Shown piece after piece: positions 397 through 9,373 of a stretch of 20,166 nt of DNA. A program made the position numbers and the translations under genes. Positions within the stretch are counted from its first letter, which is position 1, and each line of letters begins with the position of its first letter. This DNA is from a virus. The notes under the pieces were generated by a model. That model saw nothing but the letters and a program-made list of their open reading frames with translations, was not told the origin of the DNA and did not search any database. The stretch is from positions 1 to 20,166 of the IMG/VR virus record IMGVR_UViG_3300040801_000747; one strand, given 5' to 3'.

Positions 397-789
397 TTAA
401 ATGTCCTTCCACTTAACAGCCATAGTATAACCGCCGTTATCTAGAGCAACGCCATCCATACGGATTCCGTTTGCCCAAGCGTCATTAATTGCCGTTTTTG
501 ACAAAACTTTTCTTTGTTCAAAATACTCATCTGGCACAAGGTTTTCATCAATGACAACTGGTTTAACTGGCTTAGCTTTAATGACTATATTAACATTATC
601 GTCATCAAGTGTTTTTTTATTGTTAGATATAAATATTGTAATTATCTGATCTTTTATGTCAGATATTATCTTATCAATATTTCTTTTTTCTTTTTCTAGC
701 TCTCGCTTTGCTGCTGAAAGTGCGTCAACAGATTGTTGCGCTTCTTTTAAAGCTTCTATCAAATTATATAATTCTTGTGGTGCTTTCAT
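397..789 (-). CDS. Gp157-like phage protein
   Basis: This 130-aa protein resembles the Siphovirus Gp157 family, which is found next to recombinases and is sometimes described as host-nuclease inhibitor-like; its biochemical role is poorly defined. The N-terminal two thirds is a charged coiled coil (roughly residues 5-55, rich in K, E and A). The C-terminal part has the family pattern, including VVIDENLVPDEYF followed by KTAINDAWANG. A longer reading begins with GTG at 855, but that codon lies in the -35 region of a good promoter. The ATG at 789 has an AAAGGAAACACAGCC leader much like a classical RBS, so it is preferred. The gene heads a promoter-driven unit with the downstream ATPase. Family assignment is by remembered motif, not by search. 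Confidence 0.8.
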   Translation of the reverse strand: MKAPQELYNLIEALKEAQQSVDALSAAKRELEKEKRNIDKIISDIKDQIITIFISNNKKTLDDDNVNIVIKAKPVKPVVIDENLVPDEYFEQRKVLSKTAINDAWANGIRMDGVALDNGGYTMAVKWKDI

Positions 790-807
790 GGCTGTGTTTC
801 CTTTTTT

Positions 808-852
808 TGTTTCCGACATGAACACATTACGAAATTTTATATTGCCTGTCAA
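808..852 (-). promoter_or_regulatory. Internal early promoter with GTCGGAAACA leader
   Basis: On the minus strand a perfect -35 TTGACA (852-847) is followed by a 17-base spacer and a -10 of TAATGT (829-824). Six bases later comes GTCGGAAACA (817-808), which therefore lies at the expected transcription start. The spacer ends in AAATTTCG, as does that of the promoter at 4158. It sits right after the stop of the 75-aa gene and would drive the Gp157-like and Sak4-like genes independently of the primase. Confidence 0.75.
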
Positions 853-854
853 CA

Positions 855-1082
855 CTAAAAAGGAATAAAATCTGCAATATCTTGTCCATTATTTATATTT
901 AATCTTTTTGAATCGTAATTCATGCACATAAGTTTTACGGCTGCAATCCATTCGGCCTTAGTCATATTTTTAATGTCAGACTTTTTAAGGTTATGCTTGA
1001 AATGCTCTATGCCCATATGTGCAGCATATTCCATTGCAGTTTGTTCATCTTTTGAAAAGCTATCTATTGTATCTTGCATCAT
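855..1082 (-). CDS. Small phage protein of unknown function
   Basis: This is a 75-aa, mostly helical, charged protein (MMQDTIDSFSKDEQTAMEY at the start). I do not recognise the family and see no membrane segment, metal site or catalytic motif. The start at 1082 is supported by AAGGAG eight bases upstream and by an ATGA overlap with the stop of the VRR-NUC gene (1081-1079); an in-frame upstream start at 1106 is less likely. It lies between nuclease and Gp157-like genes in the early operon, so a part in replication or recombination is possible but only inferred from position. Confidence 0.7.
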   Translation of the reverse strand: MMQDTIDSFSKDEQTAMEYAAHMGIEHFKHNLKKSDIKNMTKAEWIAAVKLMCMNYDSKRLNINNGQDIADFIPF

Positions 1083-1456
1083 TTTAAATTCTCCTTGTTG
1101 TAACATTCTAAAAATTGTTTTAACCCATCTTCTGGCGTTTTCGCCTTAACCACGTAAACGATCTTGCTCAAGCTTCTTAATTTGCTGTGCATTTCCTTTT
1201 GATTGTCTGATAACCTGCCTTTCATTGTTTTTAATTCAACATAAAAATCAGGCTCAATTATATGTATATCTGGCCACCCAGATTCCATACCTAACATCTT
1301 TGCTTTACTGGCGGTTCTTTTACTGGTGTACATACCCTCAAGGCCAGCGCGGAACAAAACATCGTTACGTCTTAACCATTGAACAATATAGGCTTGTATA
1401 TCATCTTCAAGCCAATTTGTTAATGTGCAGCTCTTATCTTTTTTAGTTAGCTTCAT
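1079..1456 (-). CDS. VRR-NUC domain nuclease
   Basis: This 125-aa stand-alone VRR-NUC protein is a PD-(D/E)XK-type nuclease found in many phages beside primase-helicases. It probably cuts branched DNA such as replication or recombination intermediates. The core is visible as GWPDI (residues 60-64, metal-binding D63), FYVELK (71-76, catalytic E74 and K76) and the conserved glutamine Q86 in SDNQKE. An acidic and glutamine patch near residues 17-21 fits the N-terminal helix of the fold. The length is typical of single-domain phage versions. The ATG overlaps the primase stop by 4 nt, indicating translational coupling. All expected active-site residues are present, so it should be active. Confidence 0.9.
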   Translation of the reverse strand: MKLTKKDKSCTLTNWLEDDIQAYIVQWLRRNDVLFRAGLEGMYTSKRTASKAKMLGMESGWPDIHIIEPDFYVELKTMKGRLSDNQKEMHSKLRSLSKIVYVVKAKTPEDGLKQFLECYNKENLK

Positions 1457-3726
1457 TTTAATGCCCTATATATAATTGGTGGTTGTCCTGCTTTGCCTGT
1501 TTTAATGTGTTCTTCTATTACAAGATCTCCACTTAACAGATCGTCTATTATCTCTTTGCGGTCTTTTGGCTTTATACTGCTAAACGGTTTTTTCTTATTC
1601 ATATCTGATTTTAAAACACCTATTTCACCTGCATCTCTAATTGCAGACAAGAACGCTAGCTTGTCTTTTTCAAAAGCAGACGTATAAAGCTTGCCTTTAA
1701 CTTTCTTAACAATAAAATCAAGGTTGGTTTTCATGTAATTTATACCAAATTCTGCATGTCTTCTTTCTACAATTTCAGCATCTGGATTCTCTGAAAGCGC
1801 AGCAATTAATGACAAGCGCATCGCCCATTCAGTCGCACGCATTGGCATTTCAGAAATATTTATTTTTATTAATTCATTAGCCCAGTCTATGCACTCGCGA
1901 CCATAAGCTTTGAAAGCATCTTTAGCATCATCATCAAATTGCAATGTTATTGGATCATCAGGGTTTATTCTGCTTTTAATCGCATTGTGCCAAGCCTTAA
2001 CCGTATCTGGCGTTTCTATCCATGGCCTATGATTGCGTTCTTCTATGGGTGATTCATCAACATATATAATAAATCTATTAAATAAGCCACTTTTAACAGC
2101 CTCATGATTAACAGAATCAAAGAAAGCATCTGGCGTCGTTAAGCAAAGTAATGATAGCGCAGGTCTTGAAACTTTCTTACTTACATCCTGTCTTTTTGAT
2201 TTTGCAACAGTAGCTTGGCTATATGCTTTTAATCTTATACTGCTGCCTAACTTGGTAATAGCCTGCATTAAATAGCTTATAGCTTGGCGCATATGACTAT
2301 TGCCAACGTCATTAACGGATTTCATATACATGCCGAACTCATCTATAATCGACAAAGCTTTTGGTGATTGCTCTAAGGTCGTGAATATAGCGCCCTCGCT
2401 AGTAAAGCCATCGCCACAAATAAGTTCTTCACAGTCAAGCTCTTCAAAAACGCGCTCTATGTATTTCTTGCAATGATCTTTACCAGCTCCAGAATGACCA
2501 ATATTTACAAAATATAAAGATGTGTAATTCTCATAACTTGTTTGGAAGTCTCGACCTAATACAACAGACAAAGCAGCTAAAACAGTCTGCATTGCAAAGC
2601 CTTTTTGGCGCTTGCCACTTGTAAACATATAATGATCCACCAAGTCGGACATTATGCCAACGGGGTCTATAACATTATATTCTTGCGATTCTTTACGGCT
2701 GTAATATTGAATAGATGTTTCTTGTTGAAGCGCCTTATTTACGGCATCTACTCCAAGTTCTATCATCATGTCATTAAAGTCATTGTAACCATCTGGAAAG
2801 GCTAGCTTTAAATTAAGCGCATCGGCTGCATCAGTTGCCTTGTTTCTGCCTATATTTATGTCATTATTAAAATCATCATCGCCACACACAATTATATTAG
2901 CATGATTCTTTTTAACGTGCGTGCAGACGCTATATAAATTGCCAGCATCAAAAGCAATGTAAACATTGCATCCAGTCGCCATATGTATGCTTGCGCCTGT
3001 GCTATAACCCTCACATATATATACAACGTCATCACTGCCTTTAATTATGCCGTAACAGCCTTTCTTTTTACCGCCTTTTAAAAACCTTTTTTTATAGCTT
3101 GTTTTTATTTCGCCAGTTTCTTTGTTGATTGTTTCATCAATAAAAATGCGCTGTAAATTAACTATTTCTTCATTTTCAAACAATGGAATGACAAGAGCGT
3201 CACCTTGTTGCTTAACATTATAAGCATTTATCTTTTTATCCGTAATATACTTGTGAGCCTTATAGTCTGATGATTTTGACCACATGTCTTGCGCTCTAAG
3301 CTTTGCATCTTCATTCTTTTTCCGTATTTCAAGTTCTCGTATTTTCTCGGCTTCTTTAATTGCGCTTTCATAAAACAACCTTTCTTGTTCTGTGTAAAAC
3401 TTTTGTTTTTTTGATGTCCACTTACTTTTAATATCTGCTTTCCAAGATCCGTAAATTCCTATGCCTATATATGAGCCTGTGCGATTCATATCCGCCATTT
3501 CATAATATATAGCCCAGCCGCTATTTTTACCCTTGGCATCCGTTGGATCATCCATCCGCATCATTTGCCCAACAGAAATTTGATTAACTGGCTTATAACC
3601 AGCTAACTTTAATTCGTTTAAAAAGCCCATTCTTGAGTCACCAGAATAATCATATTGATCTTCTGCCAAGCCCGGCAATTTGTTAAATTCGATAGTTTCA
3701 TTAATGTCTTTTAGATCATACCGCAT
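1453..3726 (-). CDS. TOPRIM primase fused to DUF3987-type helicase domain
   Basis: This 757-aa protein is the likely replication primase-helicase. The N-terminal ~110 residues resemble the lead domain of phage and plasmid primases. A charged linker (about 110-150) follows. The TOPRIM domain at about 230-320 shows VVYICEGYSTGA with E239 and IIVCGDDDF with D283-D285, followed by YNDFNDM. The C-terminal ATPase region (about 355-650) is DUF3987-like, with P-loop GHSGAGKD at 410-417 and Walker B ALSIIDEF at 458-464 (D462, E463). The P-loop ends in GKD rather than the usual GKT or GKS. No zinc-finger cysteine cluster is evident. It is the first gene of the leftward operon, beginning 14 bases after the GTCGGAAACA motif with a GGGAA RBS. 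Confidence 0.88.
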   Translation of the reverse strand: MRYDLKDINETIEFNKLPGLAEDQYDYSGDSRMGFLNELKLAGYKPVNQISVGQMMRMDDPTDAKGKNSGWAIYYEMADMNRTGSYIGIGIYGSWKADIKSKWTSKKQKFYTEQERLFYESAIKEAEKIRELEIRKKNEDAKLRAQDMWSKSSDYKAHKYITDKKINAYNVKQQGDALVIPLFENEEIVNLQRIFIDETINKETGEIKTSYKKRFLKGGKKKGCYGIIKGSDDVVYICEGYSTGASIHMATGCNVYIAFDAGNLYSVCTHVKKNHANIIVCGDDDFNNDINIGRNKATDAADALNLKLAFPDGYNDFNDMMIELGVDAVNKALQQETSIQYYSRKESQEYNVIDPVGIMSDLVDHYMFTSGKRQKGFAMQTVLAALSVVLGRDFQTSYENYTSLYFVNIGHSGAGKDHCKKYIERVFEELDCEELICGDGFTSEGAIFTTLEQSPKALSIIDEFGMYMKSVNDVGNSHMRQAISYLMQAITKLGSSIRLKAYSQATVAKSKRQDVSKKVSRPALSLLCLTTPDAFFDSVNHEAVKSGLFNRFIIYVDESPIEERNHRPWIETPDTVKAWHNAIKSRINPDDPITLQFDDDAKDAFKAYGRECIDWANELIKINISEMPMRATEWAMRLSLIAALSENPDAEIVERRHAEFGINYMKTNLDFIVKKVKGKLYTSAFEKDKLAFLSAIRDAGEIGVLKSDMNKKKPFSSIKPKDRKEIIDDLLSGDLVIEEHIKTGKAGQPPIIYRALK

Positions 3727-3740
3727 GATATTTCCCTTTA

Positions 3741-3750
3741 TGTTTCCGAC
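3741..3750 (-). promoter_or_regulatory. GTCGGAAACA leader motif before primase gene
   Basis: This is an exact copy of the ten-base motif that follows the two other early promoters; here it is 14 bases before the primase ATG. A -10 box in the same register is not convincing (GGTTAG); a weak alternative pair is TTGATT and AAAATA further upstream. The motif is therefore either bound independently of the promoter core or is a conserved leader element. Confidence 0.6.
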
Positions 3751-3780
3751 TAATTACTAACCTATTTTGCACTAAAAAAA

Positions 3781-3794
3781 TACTAAATCAAGTA
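3781..3794 (-). promoter_or_regulatory. Dyad TACT-N6-AGTA upstream of primase gene
   Basis: This short inverted repeat overlaps the only -35-like sequence (TTGATT) before the primase gene. Its AATACT edge resembles the core of the nearby repeat family. It could be an operator or another iteron-like site. Such a short dyad in AT-rich DNA may be chance. Confidence 0.3.
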
Positions 3795-3868
3795 CAATAA
3801 TATAATTAATATATTGTTTTAATTATATGTTAATGTAATTAAGTTTTAAATATATGTAATGTTTTTAA

Positions 3869-3906
3869 TAATACTTTTTAAAATTGAAAAGTATTCAAAA
3901 GTATTA
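3869..3906. repeat. Cluster of three AAAAGTATT iteron-like repeats
   Basis: TAATACTTTT (3869-3878) is inverted relative to AAAAGTATTC (3887-3896) and AAAAGTATTA (3897-3906). The latter two are head-to-tail at exactly 10 bp, about one helical turn. The first two form a 9-bp perfect inverted repeat around an 8-base loop. The arrangement suggests a protein binding to successive helical faces. Confidence 0.6.
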
Positions 3907-3973
3907 TATGAAAACTAAGCATTGAAAAAACCTAATAAAATCAATGATGGCTTATTTTACATAGCATTAAAAA

Positions 3974-3983
3974 TAATACTTTA
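3974..3983 (-). repeat. Iteron-like repeat copy (TAATACTTTA)
   Basis: This is a nine-of-ten match to the TAATACTTTT repeat, just left of the AT run. It is in the same orientation as the copy at 3869. Confidence 0.45.
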
Positions 3984-4026
3984 ATATAATATATATATAT
4001 ATATATATTTTCTTTTATTAGACTCT

Positions 4027-4070
4027 TAGAGGGGGACTGTGTGTGTGCCTAGGTATCTTAGACCCCCCTA
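4027..4070. repeat. GC-rich inverted repeat in AT-rich intergenic region
   Basis: TAGAGGGGGAC (4027-4037) faces GACCCCCCTA (4061-4070) across a loop holding a GT repeat and the palindrome CCTAGG. The arms pair over about eight bases with one bulged A. TCTTAGA also occurs directly repeated at 4024-4030 and 4056-4062. No T-run follows on either strand, so it is not a typical terminator. It may be a structural or protein-binding part of the origin. Confidence 0.5.
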
Positions 4071-4080
4071 AAAAGTATTA
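4071..4080 (+). repeat. Iteron-like repeat copy (AAAAGTATTA)
   Basis: This is an exact match to the copy at 3897-3906. It lies directly after the GC-rich inverted repeat and 17 bases before the DnaA box. Confidence 0.5.
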
Positions 4081-4097
4081 TTTATTATATGTTAAAC

Positions 4098-4106
4098 TGT
4101 GGATAA
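4098..4106 (-). promoter_or_regulatory. Perfect DnaA box
   Basis: TGTGGATAA is the exact complement of the consensus host DnaA box TTATCCACA. It lies in the intergenic region next to the repeats. It points to host DnaA being recruited to start phage replication, but a single nine-base match could also be chance. Confidence 0.55.
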
Positions 4107-4157
4107 CTTTTAATTTGATGTTTTTGTTTATGGTGGTTTATTTTTTATTTTTTTCTA

Positions 4158-4202
4158 TTGCATTTGTTTTTTAAATTTCGTATATTGGTTTTGTCGGAAA
4201 CA
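4158..4202 (+). promoter_or_regulatory. Rightward early promoter with GTCGGAAACA leader
   Basis: TTGCAT (4158-4163), a 17-base spacer ending in AAATTTCG, and TATATT (4181-4186) are followed after six bases by GTCGGAAACA (4193-4202). Spacing and leader match the minus-strand promoter at 852-808 base for base in layout. A second GGAAACA at 4211-4217 forms part of the RBS of the next gene, as in the other unit. Confidence 0.72.
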
Positions 4203-4221
4203 TTACAAAAGGAAACAGACA

Positions 4222-4491
4222 ATGCAAAACAACAATGAAAATTATTACGAAGCTTTTGAAGAGTTAAATTATTCTGGTCAAACTTTGGTTGATGGTTTTA
4301 GTGTCAATGAATTAAAAAAAGATTTAGAAAATTTATATTGTGATTTATCTATTGAAAACCAAAGTTACGGATATGGCGAAAAAGAAATTTATGTTTTTTG
4401 CAATGGTAACTACGTTGAAACTTTGTTGATATCTTGGGATGCAGAAGAACCAGAAGATATGATTAAAGAACATGGCACTTGGTCAGTGTAA
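4222..4491 (+). CDS. Unknown small acidic protein, first rightward early gene
   Basis: This is an 89-aa acidic protein with no recognised family. The N-terminal part (1-40) is helical and acidic. The second half is aromatic-rich with beta-like pattern (YGYGEKEIYVFCNGNYVE), and the end is acidic. There is no signal peptide or membrane segment. The start has an AAAGGAAACAGAC leader with normal spacing, and the gene lies immediately behind the promoter at 4158, so it should be expressed with the recombination genes and before the late genes. Regulator, host takeover and anti-defence roles are all open; none is shown. Confidence 0.7.
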   Translation: MQNNNENYYEAFEELNYSGQTLVDGFSVNELKKDLENLYCDLSIENQSYGYGEKEIYVFCNGNYVETLLISWDAEEPEDMIKEHGTWSV

Positions 4492-5923: not shown

Positions 5924-7316
5924 TATCAATTTAAAAGATATTTTAGATGAGCAACAAAGGCGTAAATATAACAAGCTTGCGTATTTTTTCCCTGAAAAAG
6001 GCGCTCACCGCCGTGAATTATACCCAAAGCATTTAGAATTTATCAAGTCTACTGCCGATTTTAGGGAGTCTTGCTTTATGGCTGCTAACCGTGTTGGTAA
6101 GTCGGAAACAGGCGCTTTTGCAGTTGCGGTGTGGCTAACAGGTTTGTATCCTGAATGGTGGCAAGGCAAGAAATTCAAGGGTGCTATTAATTGTTTGGCT
6201 GCAGGCGAAACTGGGAAGCTTGTTAGGGATTCACTTCAAAGAAAGCTTTTAGGCGATCCGTCTGATATTGGTAGCGGTTTAATACCTAAGGACCATATAA
6301 TCGAGGTCAGGCCAAAAGCTGGAATTCCTGATGCAGTGGATACGGTTAGGATTAAGCACATACTAGGTGGCGAAAGCGTATTGCAATTTCAGTCCTATGA
6401 CCAAGGCAGAACGGCTTTTCAGGCAACTGAAAGAGATGTTGTTTGGGAAGATGAAGAACCACCTGCAGATGTTCACAATGAAGCTTTGATACGTACCATG
6501 ACGACTGGCGGTATTGTTATGCTTACTTTTACGCCTTTAAAGGGTATGTCAGAAACGGTTATGAGTATTCAGGCAAAATCTGCAAAGGGGTTGTCTAGTA
6601 TAGTTCAAGCCACATGGGATGACGCGCCACATCTTGGTGAGAAAGAAAAAACAGAGCTTTGGGAAGCTTTACCACCTTATCAGCGCGATGCAAGGTCTAA
6701 GGGTATTCCACAGCTAGGATCGGGCGCAATATATCAAGTTTCAGAAAGTGACATAGTTTGCGAGCCGTTCAAGTTACCTGAACACTTTAAGGTTGCTTAT
6801 GGCTTTGATGTTGGTTGGAATAATACGGCCGTTGTTTGGATAGCCCATGATCTAGACAGTGACATAGTTTATTTGACCCATGAATACAAGAAAGGGCAGG
6901 CAGAACCTAGCGTTCATGCTGCATCTATAAAAGCTAGGGGGGATTGTATAGGCGTTATAGATCCTGCATCTAGGGGGCGCGCTCAAGCTGATGGCAAACA
7001 GCTTATTGAGCTTTACAAACAACAGGGGTTGAGATTACAGCTTGCAGACAATACAGTTGAAGCAGGTATATTTGACGTTTACGAGCGATTAAGTACGGGG
7101 CGTTTAAAGATATTTAGCACGTGCCAAAAAACCTTAGAAGAGTACAGAATTTATCGTAGAGATGAAAAAGGCAGGATAGTTAAGCAGAACGATCACTTGA
7201 TGGACGCATTGCGCTACGCCATTAGGTCTGGCCTAAAATATGCGGACTATTCTAAGAAAAGAAAACCTGTATCAATGCGTATTGAAAATAGTGGCGGCTC
7301 TCATATGGGGTATTGA
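5907..7316 (+). CDS. terL: Terminase large subunit
   Basis: This 469-aa DNA-packaging motor has both expected domains. The ATPase carries Walker A AANRVGKSE (59-67) and Walker B DVVWEDEEPP (177-186, D182 and E183). The RNase H-like nuclease carries FDVGW (D301), VIDPAS (D352) and NDHLMDALRY (D429, D433). Length and motif order match phage terminases of the headful type. It cuts concatemeric DNA and pumps it through the portal into the prohead. It overlaps terS and is followed by a ~100-base gap with a possible promoter before the portal gene. Confidence 0.95.
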   Translation: MDQIPDINLKDILDEQQRRKYNKLAYFFPEKGAHRRELYPKHLEFIKSTADFRESCFMAANRVGKSETGAFAVAVWLTGLYPEWWQGKKFKGAINCLAAGETGKLVRDSLQRKLLGDPSDIGSGLIPKDHIIEVRPKAGIPDAVDTVRIKHILGGESVLQFQSYDQGRTAFQATERDVVWEDEEPPADVHNEALIRTMTTGGIVMLTFTPLKGMSETVMSIQAKSAKGLSSIVQATWDDAPHLGEKEKTELWEALPPYQRDARSKGIPQLGSGAIYQVSESDIVCEPFKLPEHFKVAYGFDVGWNNTAVVWIAHDLDSDIVYLTHEYKKGQAEPSVHAASIKARGDCIGVIDPASRGRAQADGKQLIELYKQQGLRLQLADNTVEAGIFDVYERLSTGRLKIFSTCQKTLEEYRIYRRDEKGRIVKQNDHLMDALRYAIRSGLKYADYSKKRKPVSMRIENSGGSHMGY

Positions 7317-7341
7317 CCTGTAAGCCTAATTAATACATAAT
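7313..7341 (+). promoter_or_regulatory. Candidate promoter upstream of portal gene
   Basis: TTGACC (7313-7318) and CATAAT (7336-7341) are 17 bases apart, each one base off consensus. The -35 overlaps the terL stop. A transcript would start near 7348, leaving a 70-base leader before the portal start. It would let head genes be expressed apart from the terminase. No experimental-like support beyond the match. Confidence 0.45.
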
Positions 7342-7417
7342 TAACTAATTGATATGCATCTTTGCCCATTTCGGGACGTTCAGCAATCGACAAAAGCACA
7401 TTAAGGGGTTTTATGCT

Positions 7418-9373
7418 TTGAACGATCATGACAAGCTGCTGCACGCGCAAAAAGTTTACAAAAGAGATAAAGAAGCGTTAAATGATATTTATCGCAAGGC
7501 TAGTGAAGACCTAGATTTTCTTTCTGATGAGCCATATGCTCAATGGGATAAAGGGGATTACGAAGCGCGAGTTTCAACAGGTAGGCCAGCTTTAACGATA
7601 GATCAACTTAGCCAGTTTATACATCAGGTTGCTAATGATATACGCATGAATACACCTAGCATTAATATCATCCCAAGCGATCAGGATGCTAGCCAAGAAT
7701 CCGCCGAAGTTATGCGCGGTTTAATCAAAGAAATAGAATATAGAAGCAATGCTGATGATGTATATGATACAGCAAGCCTAAATGCAATTCGCTGTTCAAT
7801 GGGATTTATACGCGTTGATCATGAGTACGCAAGAAACAAAAAAGTTCAGCAGGCTGTTATAAAGCGCGTTGTTAATCCTTTATCGGTTTTTTTAGACAGT
7901 AATAGCATTGAGTGCGATGGTCGAGATGCTATGCACGCAACAGTGATCGAGAAAATAACCGTTGAGCGTTTTAAAGAGCTTTATCCAAAAAATAACCCTG
8001 TATCTTTTGAAGATGCCGATTCTGATTTTACAAAACTTGATGATGAAGATTATATCAGCATTGCAGAATGCTTTAAGAAAGAAATTCAAAAAGAAATTGT
8101 TATTGACGAGTATGGCGAAGAGCAAGAAGAAGAAACCATTGTTATTTATCGCTATAAAATGAGTGGCGATGCAATCTTAGAAGAAACTGTATTCCCTGGA
8201 GATTATATCCCTATCGTTCCTGTTTACGGTGAGGAAACTTGGATCAAGGGTGAGCGCCATATATTTAGTTTGATTAGAAAATCCAAAGATGCGCAACGTA
8301 TGTTTAATGTTTGGAAGTCACTAGAAACTGAATTGCTACGCAAAGCGCCTAACGCGCCTATCATGGCAGCAGAAGGCACAGTAGAAGATTATAAAGCTGA
8401 TTGGCAAGACCCGCAAAAGTCTATGGTTCTTAGGTACAAGCAGACCGACACTGATGGAAATCCCGCACCACCGCCACAAAGACTCGAGCCGCCTACGATT
8501 CCGACTGGCGTGGTTAATGCATCAAGGGGCGCTGTTGAGGATATTAAAGCCACAATGGGAATCTATAATGCTGCCCTTGGTATGCGTTCTAATGAAAGCT
8601 CTGGCATTGCTATTAGGCAAAGACAGCAAGAATCAGATGTAGCAACTTATCACTTCAGCGATAACTTAGTACGTTCTATAACACAAGTGGGCCGCATATT
8701 GGTTGGTATGATTCCAGTTATATACGACACCCCACGCATTTTAAAGATTATTGGTTCAGATGATGAAGCTAAGACTATTGGCGTTAATGGCGAGCAGTCA
8801 GGTGATCAGCCTGAAACAATTGATTTATTAAGTGGCGACTATGACGTTCGCGTTACAACTGGCGCAAGTACATCCACATTAAGGCAAGAGGGTGCAGAAT
8901 TTCTTAGCAATGTAATAAGTCAAAGCCCTGATATGCTTAACATTGCTGGTGATTTATTGTTTGGTAATATGGACTTTAAGGGTGCTGATGCTTTAGCGGA
9001 GCGTATGAAGAAAGTTATTGACCCTAAGTTCCTGCAAGACGATGAGGGGCAAGACCCTATGGTTATGGCTTTGCAGGCTCAGCTGCAAGAAGCACAATCA
9101 GTCATTCAGCAAATGCAAGTGCAATTGCAAGAAAAACAAACAGAAACGCAAATAAAAATACAGGCTGAACAAAACGACGCTGAAGAAGCGCGCGCAAAGG
9201 TTCAGGTTCAAGTCGCTGAATTAGAACTAGAAAAGTCAAAGGTTCAATCAGAGGTTGAATTGCGCAGGTTAGAGTTAGAGTTAAAAGCTAAAGAATTATC
9301 CCTAAAGGAAATGGAATTGCAGGCGAAAGTCGTGCAGGAAAGTCAGGCAATAACGCCTGAACTATTATACTAA
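7418..9373 (+). CDS. P22-type portal protein
   Basis: This 651-aa portal forms the dodecameric ring at the head vertex through which DNA is packed and ejected. The N-terminal half (YEARVSTGRPALTIDQL, then IRMNTPSINIIP and SMGFIRVDHEY) is characteristic of P22-type portals. The C-terminal ~95 residues (547-640) are a long glutamine- and glutamate-rich coiled coil, like the helical barrel of P22 portal but shorter; P22 portal has 725 residues. I choose TTG at 7418 because AAGGGG lies eight bases before it; a TTG at 7349 would sit on the predicted transcript start, and the ATG at 7413 is followed at once by a stop. Nucleotide context fits the order terL-portal-scaffold-coat. Confidence 0.92.
   Translation: MNDHDKLLHAQKVYKRDKEALNDIYRKASEDLDFLSDEPYAQWDKGDYEARVSTGRPALTIDQLSQFIHQVANDIRMNTPSINIIPSDQDASQESAEVMRGLIKEIEYRSNADDVYDTASLNAIRCSMGFIRVDHEYARNKKVQQAVIKRVVNPLSVFLDSNSIECDGRDAMHATVIEKITVERFKELYPKNNPVSFEDADSDFTKLDDEDYISIAECFKKEIQKEIVIDEYGEEQEEETIVIYRYKMSGDAILEETVFPGDYIPIVPVYGEETWIKGERHIFSLIRKSKDAQRMFNVWKSLETELLRKAPNAPIMAAEGTVEDYKADWQDPQKSMVLRYKQTDTDGNPAPPPQRLEPPTIPTGVVNASRGAVEDIKATMGIYNAALGMRSNESSGIAIRQRQQESDVATYHFSDNLVRSITQVGRILVGMIPVIYDTPRILKIIGSDDEAKTIGVNGEQSGDQPETIDLLSGDYDVRVTTGASTSTLRQEGAEFLSNVISQSPDMLNIAGDLLFGNMDFKGADALAERMKKVIDPKFLQDDEGQDPMVMALQAQLQEAQSVIQQMQVQLQEKQTETQIKIQAEQNDAEEARAKVQVQVAELELEKSKVQSEVELRRLELELKAKELSLKEMELQAKVVQESQAITPELLY

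Follow-up and report, generated by a model that had tools for sequence, protein, structure and literature searches.

Introduction

Several reports describe short, oriented repeats at the starts of phage genes, mostly without a known function except for stoperators of the L5 type. The cluster A mycobacteriophages (L5, TipsytheTRex) carry 13-bp operators/stoperators in more than 20 copies together with a known repressor, and L5-type sites act as operators in promoters and, in short gaps between genes, as stops that depend on orientation (PMC9283540). The Microbacterium cluster EC phages (Quhwah, KaiHaiDragon) have an 18-bp asymmetric repeat of unassigned function, present in 12 copies per genome in short non-coding gaps, 21–30 bp upstream of the start codon (PMC7302621, PMC9224216). 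In cluster K mycobacteriophages, the Start Associated Sequences are the ribosome-binding site itself and lie 3–7 bp before the start (PMC3203893). Here we analyze a ten-base element, GTCGGAAACA, that recurs in three gene leaders of IMG/VR record IMGVR_UViG_3300040801_000747, a phage genome fragment whose 20,166 bp make up the entire record and are referred to below as the window. From its placement, and by analogy with the described systems, we tentatively propose, at somewhat short of an even chance, that GTCGGAAACA is an asymmetric, strand-oriented start-site element that would be bound as DNA by a putative phage regulator in the manner of a stoperator.

Similar to the cluster A sites, GTCGGAAACA is short and asymmetric, is oriented with transcription and is found at promoters and in leaders. 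However, more than 20 sites there compare with three leader copies here (four copies in all, in 20 kb of an incomplete genome), and the regulator is only putative. The cluster EC repeat is the published layout closest to this one. The likeness to it lies in the asymmetry, the single orientation relative to transcription and the position upstream of the ribosome-binding site, the 5′ end of GTCGGAAACA standing 24–29 nt before the start; the EC repeat differs in its sequence, in its 12 copies per genome and in belonging to actinobacterial siphoviruses. Additionally, the EC motif contains a −10-like hexamer, whereas in the window the constant part is limited to the 10-mer downstream of a variable −10. 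Like the Start Associated Sequences, GTCGGAAACA is an asymmetric repeat found in several gene leaders in one orientation, but it ends 14–19 nt before the ATG and is followed downstream by a separate ribosome-binding site. In phage lambda, the OL/OR operators are palindromic and overlap the −35 and −10, and the nut sites carry a hairpin. Having one regulatory sequence for leftward and rightward units is the feature in common with lambda; unlike the lambda sites, GTCGGAAACA has no dyad symmetry and its leaders have no hairpin. The element is a new sequence in an already known kind of arrangement, and its function is putative.

Results

A first-pass annotation of this DNA had listed three exact copies of GTCGGAAACA shortly before start codons, and their coordinates and strands were confirmed. 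We refer to the three units and their leaders as U1, U2 and U3. The element and the signals around it are as follows:

808–817, minus strand: GTCGGAAACA in the leader of U1, the unit with the Gp157 and Sak4-like genes; exact match
3741–3750, minus strand: GTCGGAAACA in the leader of U2, the primase unit, with no in-register −10; exact match
4193–4202, plus strand: GTCGGAAACA in the leader of U3, the rightward unit; exact match
824–852, minus strand: predicted U1 promoter, TTGACA (852–847), N17 ending in AAATTTCG (837–830), TAATGT (829–824); the top-scoring promoter
4158–4186, plus strand: predicted U3 promoter, TTGCAT (4158–4163), N17 ending in AAATTTCG (4173–4180), TATATT (4181–4186); read from the sequence and found by the promoter scan
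3764–3791, minus strand: weak and uncertain candidate U2 promoter, TTGATT-N16-CAAAAT; 8 of 12 consensus positions
795–801, minus strand: GGAAACA repeated at the ribosome-binding site of U1
4211–4217, plus strand: GGAAACA repeated at the ribosome-binding site of U3

In U1 and U3, GTCGGAAACA begins exactly 6 nt after a sigma-70-type −10 that is preceded by a 17-nt spacer ending in AAATTTCG, as had been claimed for two of the copies. The full layouts are TTGACA-N17-TAATGT-N6-GTCGGAAACA-N18-ATG for U1 and TTGCAT-N17-TATATT-N6-GTCGGAAACA-N19-ATG for U3, and AAATTTCG occurs only twice in the whole window, at the equivalent spot of these two spacers. The third copy had been described as lacking a clear −10 in register; this is U2, with the layout GTCGGAAACA-N14-ATG, where the candidate −10 CAAAAT ends 13 nt upstream of the motif. 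The −10 is not fixed among the three units, being TAATGT, TATATT or absent from the register. The distance from the 3′ end of GTCGGAAACA to the start codon is 14–19 nt in all three leaders, the 5′ ends preceding the ATG by 28, 24 and 29 nt. A second GGAAACA, also noted before, forms the ribosome-binding-site repeat in U1 and U3 and reads GGAAATA in U2, with distances of 13, 15 and 12 nt between the paired GGAAA copies. The three leader copies, and a fourth copy in terL, are all sense to transcription. Judged from the predicted promoters, GTCGGAAACA would cover about +1 to +10 in U1 and U3.

The recurrence of GTCGGAAACA in three leaders is too frequent for chance. Under an order-2 Markov model, 0.013 copies are expected per window. 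Our leader test set comprised 23 upstream windows of 60 nt, and in 300 Markov simulations a 10-mer common to at least three of the 23 arose once, while none with five or more G/C appeared in three or more leaders (0/300). Allowing up to two mismatches gave 20 motif matches versus 12.5 expected, a modest excess over chance (2/100 shuffles), and therefore the signal is carried by the exact copies. Among other viral contigs of at least 8 kb, surveyed with a single crude gene caller, 3 of 140 hold some 10-mer that recurs in at least three leaders; of the three positives, Quhwah was chosen for its known repeat, and excluding it leaves 2 of 139 (L042 and L175). Such leader repeats are uncommon, and in these contigs they are located at promoters. 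A coincidental repetition of GTCGGAAACA would accord with the modest mismatch enrichment and with the two positive contigs that were not picked for a published repeat. Against it stand the simulations and the expected copy number, and the repeats of those two contigs themselves look functional, so that we consider chance very improbable.

The repeats in the positive contigs have features of their own. L042 carries the leader repeat TAAACCGTCAAC at 8024+, 10067− and 10777−, with an inverted, GTTGACGGTTTA-like copy upstream in two of the three, an operator-like arrangement. In L175 (2484−, 8569−, 12708− and 13540−, as printed minus-strand coordinates), a repeated AATAACAGTTGC is followed at a fixed distance by TTCGTATNTTTAGGTAT, and this pair resembles a Bacteroidota-type promoter class. 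In Quhwah (L251, MH271321), where we examined 11 motif copies in the first 50 kb, the EC motif begins with the −10-like TAGACT (at 2777, 3651 and 5317, for example), and an ATTAGAC block lies 18–19 nt upstream of the motif in 9 of the 11 copies. To us the EC motif looks like a promoter conserved across the start site, possibly one for the phage's own sigma factor, and this promoter shape supports a transcriptional reading of such motifs generally.

One transcriptional explanation is a promoter class that would be read by RNA polymerase itself, either that of the host or one aided by a phage sigma or polymerase-binding factor, with no separate repressor; AAATTTCG and the start-site sequence would then tune initiation and escape. 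The conserved spacer and start-site blocks of U1 and U3 fit this explanation, as do the promoter-shaped motif of the cluster EC phages, which encode a sigma factor, and the promoter class in the repeated leaders of L175. However, U2 has the motif without a promoter in register, and we regard the explanation as distinctly unlikely. Searches of 14 records with phage RNA polymerase families gave no match, the control likewise gave none, and the window is a fragment.

An ungapped comparison of U1 with U3, from the −35 through the motif, showed 29 of 45 positions to be identical. The identity is concentrated in two blocks, AAATTTCG (8/8) and the motif (10/10), with 11 of 27 elsewhere (remaining spacer 2/9, −35 3/6, −10 3/6, discriminator 3/6); two match runs of ten or more have P = 4e-4 under random mismatch placement. 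Besides the 10-mer, U2 shares little with the other two except a GGAAA ribosome-binding site. A recently copied cassette appears to explain this pattern less well than short sites under selection. If the leaders were relics of a promoter-leader cassette that had been copied and did nothing more than supply a promoter and a ribosome-binding site, the equal order of −35, −10, motif and ribosome-binding site in U1 and U3 would be explained. Non-functional positions, however, are at chance-level identity while the blocks are identical, and U2 shares nothing else; we judge a relic improbable. The AAATTTCG block lies upstream of the predicted transcript, and therefore at least that part would be read as DNA.

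We found no inverted half-site with 0–1 mismatch within 40 nt of any GTCGGAAACA copy, and a palindromic CI/Cro operator of the lambda kind does not fit. None of the leaders folds better than its shuffles (z-scores −0.28 to +1.40) and none matches an Rfam family; with no stable structure and no known RNA family, a structured leader RNA of the nut/put or riboswitch kind was rejected. The first-pass annotation had offered an operator, a promoter class or a leader RNA as forms of a shared regulatory element: the shared element, at U2 read independently of the promoter, is still the best reading, and the palindromic operator and the structured RNA drop out. CsrA was considered for the paired GGA sites, and relative to the CsrA consensus the UCGGA core is poor and a hairpin is missing, so that this host protein was discarded. 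A shared peptide was also discarded, since the U1 motif can be read as ATG-TCG-GAA-ACA (MSET) and the U2 and U3 motifs cannot.

The same leaders could instead carry a single-stranded mRNA element, in which the GUCGGAAACA 5′ end and the second GGAAA would set translation of the first gene, through a phage or host RNA-binding protein or through aided 30S loading as proposed for the Start Associated Sequences. Each copy stands a short way ahead of the GGAAA ribosome-binding site, 14–19 nt from the start codon, the leaders are open, U2 carries the motif without an in-register promoter, and the variable GGAAA spacing (13, 15 and 12 nt) suits RNA over DNA. An mRNA element does not account for the exact −10 register of U1 and U3 or for the conserved AAATTTCG block that precedes the transcript; the terL copy, should it be real, is also away from any start. 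We regard this explanation as the main rival, credible but somewhat unlikely.

The fourth copy, which the first-pass annotation had missed, is located inside a gene:

6101–6110, plus strand: fourth exact copy of GTCGGAAACA, within the terL codons for Walker A; possibly coincidental (codon-shuffle probability 0.026)

It encodes K-S-E-T of the Walker A loop in sense orientation. Synonymous-codon shuffling gave 2.6% for any coding copy of GTCGGAAACA and 2.1% for a copy in terL. Because the serine codon TCG is rare here (4%) and all five GKSET instances from related loci are written with other codons, the terL copy is not trivially due to the protein sequence; a single coincidence is possible.

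A scan of the window and its relatives, as the annotation had proposed, confirmed the exact copies and turned up no relative with the arrangement. The related loci came from TerL, DNA-stabilisation and coat protein scans plus the EBPR phage record, giving 111 loci and 1.17 Mb, partly overlapping. The promoter layout with the motif was found in 0 of the 110 loci obtained via TerL, the DNA-stabilisation protein and coat, and among all 111 GTCGGAAACA occurs once, in L084, without an in-register −10. This absence is weak evidence, because the block from the primase to gene 5277 is nearly without homologues there (Gp157 at 25% in L227, a weak VRR-nuclease in L060 and weak terS in two). Exact GTCGGAAACA was absent from 12 whole related records, whose one-mismatch counts resemble the reversed-pattern control (16 forward/reverse count pairs). 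A pair scan of 2.9 million viral contigs with GTCGGAAACAN{4,14}GGAAACA gave 57 matches, none with the promoter layout, and promoter-plus-motif scans gave 71 matches in viral contigs and 3 in genome contigs with no convincing homologous leader. No related loci were found via the primase, Gp157 and the 4537 gene, and blast of two leader regions against phage records returned nothing useful. A lookalike leader in L151 proved to be a gene junction, at which one gene ends and another begins with MSET... Conservation of the arrangement was not seen in relatives, none of which has the same leftward block, and hence there is no comparative support. Among the same loci, L137 has a tRNA-like sequence directly 3′ of the terL stop codon, and many matches of the TerL relatives L093–L136 cover excess DNA for the query residues, suggesting an insertion within terL.

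Family matches of the window proteins identify the source as an uncultured P22-like podovirus. The P22_portal match (4.7e-145) is accompanied by P22-type coat, scaffold, head closure and DNA-ejection proteins, all encoded rightward from 7.3 kb on. Among isolates, EBPR podovirus 1 and Chlorobiaceae phage CV-1-33 come closest, at ∼50% in TerL. The first gene of each unit, and a promoter that serves as an internal contrast, are:

397–789, minus strand: Gp157 gene, first of U1 (Sipho_Gp157, 1.9e-13)
1453–3726, minus strand: Toprim/DUF3987 primase gene, first of U2 (family matches)
4222–4491, plus strand: gene for an 89-aa protein, first of U3 (open reading frame; no confident family match)
7313–7341, plus strand: portal-operon promoter TTGACC-N17-CATAAT, without GTCGGAAACA (promoter scan)

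The leftward genes encode the primase, a VRR-nuclease-like protein, a protein without assigned family, Gp157 and a Sak4-like protein. From 4222 rightward, four small genes without known function are followed by terS and terL; structure predictions for the first two rightward proteins are of low confidence (mean pLDDT 50 and 37). The units had been called early, which is not established, and the rightward one continues into terS and terL. Family searches of the window proteins recognised no regulator gene in the 20,166-bp fragment; an HTH_3-type DNA-binding protein is encoded in 7 of 13 related records and in none of the window's genes. Because no regulator is recognisable in the fragment and no relative has the arrangement, the regulator is a hypothetical one.

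The portal promoter is without GTCGGAAACA, and therefore the element marks a subset of units, apart from the structural one. This promoter precedes the portal gene, and its −35 overlaps the stop codon of terL. A similar TTGAC promoter stands at the terL/portal junction of the closest relatives (L228 and L232/L217 by scan, L227 and L215 by eye), in some followed by a small CGGTAAnnnCCG hairpin. No ATG is found close to the expected start of the portal frame (window 7317–7420), where TTG at 7349 or another codon is the candidate start.

The primase and rightward units diverge from a gap at 3865–4090 that holds five copies of AAAGTATT, at 3888+, 3898+, 4072+, 3982− and 3877−, with a near-perfect inverted pair at 3870–3895. 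Five copies arose in 0 of 2000 simulations, and any 8-mer reaching five in 0 of 1000. These repeats are likely an operator or replication iterons, and AAAGTATT is a better palindromic operator candidate than GTCGGAAACA.

Discussion

We favor GTCGGAAACA as a DNA site for a phage regulator because of the promoter register seen twice, the conserved block that precedes the transcript and the L5-type precedent. We also count for it the recurrence in three leaders above chance, the unstructured leaders, the uniform orientation, the portal promoter without the element and the HTH_3 proteins of 7 of 13 records. A phage DNA-binding protein, encoded outside the fragment, would recognise GTCGGAAACA as double-stranded DNA in a fixed orientation. 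The sites would tag three unit starts for joint control: that of the primase, that of Gp157 with the Sak4-like recombinase, and that of the small rightward genes leading to the terminase. In U1 and U3, binding over about +1 to +10 would block entry or escape of RNA polymerase. In U2, with a leader site and no in-register promoter, the bound protein would act on the elongating polymerase. The +1 positions, the protein binding, the regulator and the direction of its effect are all things that we infer.

Several points weigh against a DNA site of this kind. The element is found in no relative, and no gene of the fragment encodes the regulator; the promoter of U2 was not identified beyond the weak candidate; and the leader copies number just three. 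Moreover, the distance to the start codon (14–19 nt) is about as constant as that to the −10, which an mRNA element explains better. The fuller proposal, that a P22-like phage uses one asymmetric 10-bp start tag, possibly in terL too, through which a putative regulator would act at both initiation and elongation, is rather unlikely.

If true, a DNA site of this type would represent a stoperator-like system outside the actinobacteriophages. As a small and clean example whose sigma-70 promoters are recognisable, the locus lends itself well to a test of transcription versus translation; control of this kind would also be extended to P22-like podoviruses with a Shine-Dalgarno-using host.

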